DNA of 64,000 bases, from NCBI GenBank assembly GCA_944326585.1, contig CALVEN010000001.1, positions 62,001-126,000 of the forward strand, read 5' to 3'. The notes below the pieces were generated by a model that had not been told where the DNA came from, did no database searches, and saw only the letters and a list, made by a program, of their open reading frames with translations. This document shows, piece after piece, positions 40,467-62,236 of the stretch. The first letter of the stretch is position 1. Every line of letters begins with the position of its first letter. The translations under genes were made by a program, and so were the position numbers. This stretch comes from Candidatus Gastranaerophilales bacterium (GTDB lineage Bacteria > Cyanobacteriota > Vampirovibrionia > Gastranaerophilales > Gastranaerophilaceae).

Positions 40467-40551
40467 AATTCTCTCCTTTTTGACTTTAGTTTAACACGTA
40501 AAAATTAAAATGGAATAGGTATAATTTATTAATAATATTTCCTTATAATTA

Positions 40552-40580
40552 TTGACATAAACAAATGAAATTATTATAAT
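40552..40580 (+). promoter_or_regulatory. Sense promoter of small-peptide locus 1
   Basis: TTGACA (40552-40557), 17 bp, TATAAT (40575-40580); predicted start A40587, giving an mRNA beginning AGGGTAGACC. Confidence 0.8.
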
Positions 40581-40599
40581 TTAATCAGGGTAGACCAAA

Positions 40600-40651
40600 T
40601 CACCTCCGCCTCACAACAAACTTTACTGTAAAAAGGGTGGAAAGGAGGTGA
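40600..40651 (+). promoter_or_regulatory. Shine-Dalgarno-sequestering leader helix of locus 1
   Basis: TCACCTCC (40600-40607) is perfectly complementary to GGAGGTGA (40644-40651), the ribosome-binding site of the peptide gene. The full-length mRNA should therefore be translated poorly until refolded or processed. Confidence 0.65.
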
Positions 40652-40656
40652 GAACA

Positions 40657-40731
40657 ATGAAAAGGAAAATAGTAAAAAGTGCTATCAACGCACTGATAGC
40701 ACTTTTACAAATTATTGTTCTTTTCTTGTAG
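40657..40731 (+). CDS. 24-residue hydrophobic peptide, candidate type I toxin (locus 1)
   Basis: The peptide has a basic head (MKRKIVK) and a hydrophobic tail of about 16 residues ending LLQIIVLFL, as in small membrane toxins of type I systems. A near-perfect AAAGGAGGTGA lies six bases before the ATG. Codons 7-17 form a 13-bp inverted repeat that is a terminator for the opposing RNA. A homologous gene of identical length lies at 61176-61250 (10 of 24 residues identical by my alignment). Toxicity is inferred from architecture only. A regulatory leader peptide is the main alternative, but no target gene is positioned for that. Confidence 0.7.
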   Translation: MKRKIVKSAINALIALLQIIVLFL

Positions 40732-40766
40732 GGTCTGTAAAGGCTGTCAGGTGCGACAGCCACCCT
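40674..40766 (-). ncRNA. Predicted antisense RNA of locus 1 (candidate antitoxin)
   Basis: Promoter on the minus strand: TTGACA (40795-40800), 16 bp, TATAAT (40773-40778), start near A40766. It terminates at the 13-bp stem 40675-40706 followed by five U residues (40674-40678), giving about 93 nt that overlap the 3' half of the peptide gene and the 3' hairpin. Confidence 0.65.
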
Positions 40767-40772
40767 ATTTAT

Positions 40773-40800
40773 ATTATAACTCCTTTTCAGGCTTTGTCAA
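40773..40800 (-). promoter_or_regulatory. Antisense promoter of locus 1
   Basis: TTGACA, 16 bp, TATAAT. The spacer (nnGCCTGAAAAnGAGT) is conserved in locus 2, so sequence as well as spacing is maintained. Confidence 0.75.
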
Positions 40801-61091: not shown

Positions 61092-61119
61092 TTGACATTG
61101 CCTGAAAATGAGTTATAAT
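61092..61119 (+). promoter_or_regulatory. Antisense promoter of small-peptide locus 2
   Basis: TTGACA (61092-61097), 16 bp, TATAAT (61114-61119). Spacer GCCTGAAAA.GAGT is shared with the antisense promoter of locus 1. Confidence 0.75.
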
Positions 61120-61125
61120 GTATAT

Positions 61126-61230
61126 ATAGGGAAATGGTTCCAAGAACCGACATTCCTGAAACCATTCTTAACTCCCTATACAAATTCAGCGAGAATTTGA
61201 ATTAAATGTCCTAGTGTAGCTAGGACTTTT
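61126..61230 (+). ncRNA. Predicted antisense RNA of locus 2 (candidate antitoxin)
   Basis: Starts near A61126-A61128 and ends at a terminator (GTCCTAG, loop TGTAG, CTAGGAC, six T at 61227-61232) that lies inside the opposing peptide gene. About 105 nt, overlapping its 3' half and the 3' hairpin of its mRNA. Confidence 0.65.
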
Positions 61231-61250
61231 TTAATTATGTCCCGTTTCAT
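61176..61250 (-). CDS. 24-residue peptide, candidate type I toxin (locus 2)
   Basis: A peptide of exactly the same length as locus 1, beginning MKRDIIKK and continuing with an amphipathic or hydrophobic stretch that ends ILAEFV. Shared positions include MKR, I, K, L, L, QI and F. The ribosome-binding site AAAGGAGGTGA and the following ACAATGAAA are nearly identical to locus 1. It is less hydrophobic than locus 1, so it may act at the membrane surface rather than span it. Its mRNA should start near A61319. Function is inferred from architecture. Confidence 0.7.
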   Translation of the reverse strand: MKRDIIKKVLATLGHLIQILAEFV

Positions 61251-61254
61251 TGTA

Positions 61255-61303
61255 TCACCTCCTTTCCGCTTTAGTCCCTTAACAAGTCTGTGTCGGAGGA
61301 GGT
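61255..61303 (-). promoter_or_regulatory. Shine-Dalgarno-sequestering leader helix of locus 2
   Basis: On the minus strand ACCTCCTCCG (61294-61303) can pair with CGGA-aa-GGAGGT just before the ATG, ten pairs with a two-base bulge. This is the same device as in locus 1, with different sequence. Confidence 0.6.
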
Positions 61304-61325
61304 ATGGAGCTTACCCTCTGTGTTT

Positions 61326-61354
61326 ATTTTATATTGCTGCGTAAAAAATGTCAA
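61326..61354 (-). promoter_or_regulatory. Sense promoter of locus 2
   Basis: TTGACA (61349-61354), 17 bp, TAAAAT (61326-61331); predicted start A61319, mRNA beginning AGAGGGTAAG. Confidence 0.75.
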
Positions 61355-61372
61355 GAAAAACAGGAAATATTA

Positions 61373-62236
61373 TTAACTGTTTAAAACTGTTTCAAACGCT
61401 AGATTTTCGACAATAGTCTGGATATTCATATTTAATTTCAGTTCTTTTTTGGCTTTTTCAATTGTTTTGATATCAGAGAGGAGTTTTAATTTAAGCTGAG
61501 GATTTTTAAGATTTGATTTTAAAAGGTGAACAAGGTAATTTTGCATTTGAATAAAAACTTCTGAGGGGTCATTTTCTTTTGTGAGTGACAAAATCTCGTC
61601 ATTAAAGTTCAATACTTCGTTTCTTTTTATATCAAGGTAGTTATCCATAAGGTTTTTGACAAGTTCAAAGTTTTGCGGTTCGTCTTTTTTAGACGGGACA
61701 AAAAAGCATTGTGAACGTGAAACAACTGTTGATATCATATCTGAGATATCATTTGTTAAAAAGAAGAAAGTTGTATTGGCGGGAGGTTCTTCAAAAGTTT
61801 TCAACAAAGCATTAGCGGCATCGGTTGAAAAGTTAGTAGGATTAAGCCCGCAGGGTTTGCCGTTTGAATCTTTGTCGCAGAAGATTAAAACTCTGTGGTA
61901 ATCCGATGTTATTGCAAGGTCATTTTTAATCATTCGTGCCTGTGCGATTGAAAACATTGTTTTGGAATCATCATCTGAGGGTTTGTTGTCAACTTTTGAA
62001 TAGGTTAAGACAGCCGGATGCGAATTATTTTTTATCCATGTGCAATTAAGACAATTGCAGTCAGGTGAGGCATCGAGTTTGCAGTTTAAAATTCGTGCTA
62101 TTTCAAGCGCAAGTTCATACTGCGCCTCAATATCATTTCCCCAGAATAAAATGCAGTGAGAAATATTTTTATCGGGATTTTTAATTCCCTTTGTAAAATA
62201 ATCCGTCAGAAATTTGTAGTTTTCATAGATATTCAT
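61373..62236 (-). CDS. holB: DNA polymerase III subunit delta'
   Basis: A clamp-loader subunit. ISHCILFWGNDIEAQYELAL occupies the site of the degenerate P-loop expected in delta'; the zinc module is CKLDASPDCNCLNC; DAANALLKTFEEPPANTTFFFLT and STVVSRSQCFF (SRC motif) are diagnostic. 287 residues. GGAGAGG lies about nine bases before the ATG. It follows holA, so two clamp-loader genes are adjacent. Confidence 0.93.
   Translation of the reverse strand: MNIYENYKFLTDYFTKGIKNPDKNISHCILFWGNDIEAQYELALEIARILNCKLDASPDCNCLNCTWIKNNSHPAVLTYSKVDNKPSDDDSKTMFSIAQARMIKNDLAITSDYHRVLIFCDKDSNGKPCGLNPTNFSTDAANALLKTFEEPPANTTFFFLTNDISDMISTVVSRSQCFFVPSKKDEPQNFELVKNLMDNYLDIKRNEVLNFNDEILSLTKENDPSEVFIQMQNYLVHLLKSNLKNPQLKLKLLSDIKTIEKAKKELKLNMNIQTIVENLAFETVLNS

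Follow-up and report, generated by a model that had tools for sequence, protein, structure and literature searches.

Two homologous intergenic loci were identified in a 64,000-nucleotide stretch (the window) of contig CALVEN010000001.1, positions 62,001 to 126,000, from a Candidatus Gastranaerophilales bacterium with a 1.70 Mb genome. Each locus very probably consists of convergent sense and antisense transcription units acting in the manner of a type I toxin-antitoxin (TA) module, and in each the predicted intrinsic terminator of the antisense RNA lies within the codons of a short hydrophobic peptide. It is likely that the loci belong to a large, undescribed type I TA family confined to the Gastranaerophilaceae. 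In this family about 75 bp would encode a toxin, a lock on its mRNA and the terminator of its antitoxin, and swaps of the toxin core at a fixed site would leave the antitoxin cognate, with the terminator and pairing region moving along with the toxin codons. Comparison of about 100 relatives shows that each of the three putative messages (peptide, mRNA lock and antisense terminator) is under selection.

Locus 1 is on the plus strand and locus 2 on the minus strand. Both contain a sense promoter, a leader of about 70 nucleotides (nt), a strong Shine-Dalgarno (SD) sequence and a 24-codon open reading frame (ORF) whose stop codon is directly followed by a long hairpin; a second promoter points in the opposite direction. 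A sequence-only reading of the window had placed an antisense terminator inside the peptide codons of each locus, and both stems were confirmed, with coordinates exactly as given. The arms of the locus 1 stem are AAAAGTGCTATCA (40675-40687) and TGATAGCACTTTT (40694-40706). The locus 2 stem consists of GTCCTAG (61208-61214) and CTAGGAC (61220-61226) followed by TTTTTT (61227-61232). A perfect convergent promoter (TTGACA-N16-TATAAT, 28 nt) is found opposite each stem; genome-wide the pattern occurs only at those two sites, and reversed-pattern controls gave 0. The stems differ in sequence, as had been claimed. Their position, said to be the same, agrees only within a few bases, since the last stem base is 18 nt from the A of the ATG in locus 1 and 24 nt in locus 2 (family mode 20-24 nt).

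Homologues were examined to determine whether the stem exceeds what the codons alone provide. A covariance model was built on the antisense side of the locus. After two spurious ORFs were taken out by hand, 125 loci were parsed, giving 100 distinct coding sequences (CDSs); 20 loci found by the model lacked a clean ORF, some of them being broken copies. Each CDS was compared with synonymous recodings drawn with the family's own codon usage. The antisense hairpin beat its recodings at p < 0.05 in 91/100 unique CDSs (mean z score 3.8), including that of locus 1 taken alone (p = 0.006). Under a stricter terminator call (at least 7 bp, at least 3 G-C pairs and a T-rich tail) a hairpin with T-tract was present on the antisense strand in 90/100, on the sense strand in 19/100 and in 6.5% of recodings.

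Two stem registers one base apart coexist in the family. Because of this, RNAalifold missed the terminator stem on the mixed-register alignment, and stems were split by register before pairs were counted. In the two registers represented by the window loci, both sides were altered in 9/13 and 7/13 stem pairs, and the covariation score exceeded all 500 shuffles and all slid controls in both. The comparison of synonymous and compensatory change in homologues, proposed earlier as a check, came out in favor of the terminator, as the stem is kept with both kinds of change. These results indicate that the stem is not a by-product of the peptide sequence, and we infer that the antisense RNA would terminate at it.

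Where one RNA has a G·U pair, its complement has a C·A mismatch; wobbles therefore reveal the strand under selection. Counted as distinct sequences rather than independent events, so that exact ratios are to be read with caution, wobbles in the coding-sequence stem were 61 antisense to 4 sense (67 distinct stems) and 23 to 2 after thinning to 27 peptide clusters, compared with a codon-constrained null of 1.45:1. The hairpin after the stop codon has the opposite polarity (mRNA 112, antisense 8; 79 stems), as do pairs between the AUG region and the last codons, which lie in the same ORF outside the terminator stem (mRNA 73, antisense 16). The terminator is thus assigned to the antisense RNA, and the structure around it to the mRNA. 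The suggestion that coding and RNA-structure constraints are overlaid is supported, the stem being constrained on the antisense strand. Judging from the family comparison, a lock of opposite polarity, acting on the mRNA strand, is encoded in these codons as well, a point that the sequence-only reading had not mentioned. The strand of an overlapping structure can be assigned generally and cheaply by asking on which strand G·U is tolerated.

The mRNA lock is itself visible as covariation. Variants of the mRNA 5′ end (AGGGUA-GACC, -GUACC, -GCUCC, -GUUCC and others) covary with the bases after the stop codon (GGUC, GGUAC, GGAGU, GGAAC and others). The mean energy of the 5′-3′ duplex is -9.1, as against -7.0 (standard deviation 0.2) for permuted partners, and 0/2000 permutations were as low. 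After thinning to 69 leaders, each of three pairings (anti-SD:SD, 5′-3′ and AUG:CDS-end) beat 2000/2000 permutations. The predicted folds of the two window mRNAs share one closed topology (z -7.6 and -6.1). Since no classical U-tract follows the 3′ hairpin in either window locus, the 3′ end of the toxin mRNA itself is uncertain.

Peptides of the family are 21-33 amino acids (aa) long (24 aa in 83/100) and 68% hydrophobic, with K/R at the N-terminus. The ratio of nonsynonymous to synonymous polymorphism (pN/pS) is 0.35, and on this comparison the peptide is under purifying selection. In one 33-aa member (L010:5422-5592) the antisense terminator stem begins at CDS nt 53, close to the C-terminus, rather than at about codon 7. 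Sequence comparison thus supports the ORF, the promoters, the terminator stem with its strand, the mRNA lock and the cognate covariation. The locus is a compact natural example in which a protein code, an mRNA fold and an antisense terminator appear to be overprinted in the same codons.

The following mechanism is proposed. The sense promoter would give an mRNA of about 190 nt that codes for a 24-aa peptide, first cationic and then hydrophobic. This mRNA would be born locked. Its 5′ end would pair with bases immediately downstream of the stop codon, an anti-SD in the leader would mask the SD, the AUG region would be paired to the final codons, and the 3′ end would be sealed by a long hairpin. 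The opposing promoter would give an antisense RNA of about 95-105 nt. Beginning at the mRNA 3′ hairpin, this RNA would traverse the latter half of the ORF in reverse and stop at the intrinsic terminator in codons ~7-16. Because the terminator is written in those codons, antisense length and pairing region would be set by the peptide sequence. The antisense RNA would overlap the C-terminal codons, the 3′ side of the 5′-3′ lock and the 3′ hairpin, leaving the SD and the AUG uncovered. Its probable mode of action is extensive pairing with the mRNA, followed by RNase III-type decay of the duplex, and the mRNA probably becomes translatable only once 3′ trimming opens the lock. The peptide, a putative toxin, would harm the membrane.

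Several copies have lost parts of the toxin half. L026 lost the SD and ATG and kept the antisense promoter and terminator. The leader is lost, and the antisense promoter and coding-sequence stem are kept, in L141 and in L073 (G000:C1:166299-166829), the fifth copy of the source genome. Frameshifts were found in L116 and one L034 copy. Other copies differ by their core. The flanks and both promoters of the locus 2 site (61100-61380) are 97-100% identical to L035:5600-6050, and the core is only about 55% identical. In L035 the core (end of leader, ORF and 3′ hairpin) has a peptide, a terminator stem and a 3′ hairpin of its own. Conserved flanks around a different core suggest that cores are exchanged as a unit, so that toxin and antitoxin stay cognate. 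A similar core swap was judged by eye for L012/L020 and L010/L071. In L007 (G068:C56, 474-1400) three tandem copies each have a different peptide and a different terminator stem. A distant subtype (MVINTQELAIILLIMLVLKNN and a relative) occurs in tandem at L036:6839 and L036:7162 with a wide-loop stem and a weak T-tract, and may terminate differently.

Some observations weigh against a codon-encoded antisense terminator in a type I TA locus. Taken by itself, the 7-bp stem of locus 2 does not beat its recodings significantly (p = 0.07), and the longest T run is 3 or less in about a third of members. For locus 1, the sense CDS taken alone is no less stably folded than the antisense, and the perfect stem forms in the mRNA too; because single-locus energies leave the strand undecided, it is the family comparison that decides it. 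Retention of the antisense side in broken copies is biased, the covariance model having been seeded on that side. The promoter and terminator rules applied are of the E. coli type and were assumed valid for the Gastranaerophilales lineage. We wondered whether chance could account for the stems, since A/T-rich, repetitive Lys/Ile/Leu codons yield palindromes, recodings give a terminator-like call at the rate stated above and locus 2 alone falls short of significance. This explanation has virtually no standing; it is refuted by the antisense calls in 90/100 and by covariation above all shuffles. That the stem is an element of the peptide mRNA (a translation block, attenuator or sense terminator), its antisense direction being incidental, would suit the folding of locus 1 and the co-directional gene downstream of both window loci. 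It is nevertheless very improbable, given that the stem wobbles on the antisense strand, that the sense strand has a terminator call in few members and that a sense terminator would truncate the ORF. A sense-strand attenuator in particular was rejected by the 61:4 wobble polarity and the 19/100 sense calls.

Two other explanations accept the antisense RNA and assign a different role to the stem or to the peptide. The main role of the stem could be that of a kissing loop for recognition or of a stabilizing hairpin, with termination secondary or absent. In bsrG/SR4 the antisense terminator loops make first contact (PMC6562991), so one stem can do both jobs, and strand polarity alone cannot tell a loop role from a terminator role. 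This explanation is doubtful, because a T-rich tail follows the antisense stem in 90/100 at a near-fixed distance to the ATG, as a terminator requires, and loop sequences differ freely among members. Unlikely, if less doubtful, is a convergent regulatory RNA pair with a harmless or signalling membrane peptide. The toxic role of the peptide is indeed putative, and none of four representative peptides matched a Pfam or NCBIfam toxin. However, a locked mRNA with masked SD and AUG, a cognate antisense RNA, multicopy loci and broken toxin halves with the antisense kept are needed by type I toxins and not by harmless peptides. The type I TA reading is preferred.

The covariance model found five copies in the source genome followed by a clear gap (E = 1.5e-12, next 0.8). 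It matched 179/383 genomes of the same family, in 30/41 genera. In a phylum sample 69/292 genomes matched, and all among the matches listed belong to this one family; an order sample gave one match outside the family, in a genome 66% complete. A pattern search with the element upstream of the toxin promoter returned many loci in Candidatus Gastranaerophilales records and related gut cyanobacterial metagenome-assembled genomes. For upstream-element matches in other phyla, the locus was not seen within the 360 bases shown per match. Viral contigs L171 and L172 carry the upstream element and TTGAC. Nearly half of the genomes sampled from this gut lineage carry the family, which can be read from sequence alone. 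At Rfam gathering scores only two tRNAs in the window reached score, and by E-value eight homologous loci gave only chance-level matches below gathering scores. In Pfam, searched up to E = 1, the four representative peptides matched no family, those of Fst/Ldr, Ibs, Hok and further type I toxins included, and no NCBIfam match exceeded the cut-off.

Features of both loci are listed in Table 1. Locus 1 is flanked by a ferritin-like gene and a 439-aa ORF without Pfam match, and locus 2 by the genes for DNA polymerase III delta′ and a histidine kinase. The element directly 5′ of the toxin -35 is almost invariant within the genus and may function as an UP element or bind a regulator.

Table 1. Features of the two loci, numbered from the first nucleotide of the window.
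Feature	Locus	Position	Strand	Basis or remark
Conserved element TTATTAATAATATTTCCT	1	40526..40543	+	Just 5′ of toxin promoter -35; in all genus-level homologues
Toxin-mRNA promoter TTGACA-N17-TATAAT	1	40552..40580	+	Consensus match, kept in homologues
Toxin mRNA 5′ end AGGGUAGACC; partner GGUCU right after stop	1	40586..40596	+	Minimum free energy fold; covariation 0/2000 permutations
Leader anti-SD AAUCACCUCC	1	40598..40607	+	Minimum free energy fold; covaries with SD
SD AGGAGGTGA	1	40643..40651	+	Sequence
Toxin-like peptide ORF MKRKIVKSAINALIALLQIIVLFL	1	40657..40731	+	24 aa, hydrophobic
Antisense intrinsic terminator stem in peptide codons	1	40675..40706	-	T-tract extends to about 40670 on minus strand
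Predicted antisense RNA, about 95-100 nt	1	40668..40767	-	Promoter, terminator, fold z = -6.3
Toxin-mRNA 3′ hairpin UAGGGU...GGCUGUC-GACAGCC...ACCCUA	1	40729..40767	+	Overlaps stop codon, faces antisense 5′ end
Antisense promoter TTGACA-N16-TATAAT	1	40773..40800	-	Sequence pattern
Antisense promoter TTGACA-N16-TATAAT	2	61092..61119	+	Sequence pattern
Predicted antisense RNA, about 105 nt	2	61127 to about 61234-61236	+	Promoter, terminator, fold z = -5.8
Antisense intrinsic terminator, 7-bp stem and T6, in peptide codons	2	61208..61232	+	Sequence, family comparison
Toxin-mRNA 3′ hairpin after stop codon	2	61125..61180	-	Fold, family wobbles
Toxin-like peptide ORF MKRDIIKKVLATLGHLIQILAEFV	2	61176..61250	-	Sequence
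SD AAGGAGGTGA	2	61255..61264	-	Sequence
mRNA 5′ end AGGGUAAGCUCC (long-distance interaction) and anti-SD ACCUCC	2	61298..61318	-	Fold, covariation
Toxin-mRNA promoter TTGACA-N17-TAAAAT	2	61326..61354	-	Sequence
Conserved element TTAATAATATTTCCT	2	61362..61379	-	5′ of toxin promoter

As in described type I TA systems, each locus has a short hydrophobic peptide ORF with its own promoter and SD and, at the sequence level, a cis antisense RNA with its own promoter and terminator. In hok/Sok the mRNA is locked by 5′-3′ pairing and unlocked by 3′ processing, and Sok acts at the leader and mok. The loci resemble hok in the 5′-3′ lock, but unlike Sok the antisense RNA would target the 3′ half of the mRNA rather than a leader or mok. 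In the multicopy aapA/IsoA system of Helicobacter pylori, a 30-aa membrane peptide is paired with a cis antisense RNA of ~80 nt (PMC6733600). Its full-length mRNA of ~225 nt is inert owing to a 5′-3′ long-distance interaction with SD sequestration, and is activated by 3′ trimming (PMC6733600). The loci share with it the short membrane peptide, the multiple copies, the cis antisense and the 5′-3′ interaction with SD sequestration (covariation 0/2000). The IsoA3 -10 box lies within the ORF, and two synonymous changes knocked out that promoter (PMC6733600). In aapA/IsoA the antisense promoter is in the ORF and the antisense covers the 5′ part of the mRNA, whereas in the Gastranaerophilales loci the antisense -10 is located some 40-60 nt past the stop codon, and the antisense RNA would start 45-60 nt beyond the stop and end inside the ORF. 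Codons also form part of the lock here, the AUG region pairing with the last codons. No common sequence family was found between aapA/IsoA and these loci.

The txpA/RatA, bsrG/SR4 and yonT/SR6 pairs of Bacillus subtilis are 3′-overlapping convergent genes with a duplex of ~100-120 nt, RNase III decay and an antisense terminator opposite the toxin transcript (PMC3531473, PMC6562991, PMC5848175). The loci resemble the txpA/RatA type in their 3′-end overlap of about 100 nt and in an antisense terminator that faces the mRNA, sequence kinship being judged by Pfam and NCBIfam only. They differ in lineage and sequence; the B. subtilis toxins are also longer (YonT 58 aa), and the txpA mRNA has canonical terminators. 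Descriptions of these pairs (PMC3531473, PMC6562991, PMC5848175) do not report an antisense terminator coded by toxin codons or strand-specific conservation. In the literature consulted, type I systems are described in Proteobacteria, Firmicutes and Tenericutes, with one 2025 cyanobacterial candidate, msoT1/msoA1 of Microcystis aeruginosa (PMC12390103). The latter encodes a 63-aa protein with two predicted membrane helices; single loci were predicted, and structural covariation is not part of the description (PMC12390103). The cyanobacterial lineage is shared, but the Gastranaerophilales peptide is shorter (24 aa) and its family is multicopy. A literature search on Gastranaerophilales type I systems found nothing. 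Nor was a codon-coded antisense terminator with opposite strand polarities found in the literature searched, which is not proof of absence. Judged by sequence comparison, the mechanism is a type I TA arrangement whose mRNA logic is closest to aapA/IsoA and whose convergent geometry is closest to txpA/RatA. A terminator opposite the toxin transcript has precedent in the B. subtilis pairs, and the new part appears to be a terminator encoded in toxin codons with a polarity opposite to that of the mRNA lock.
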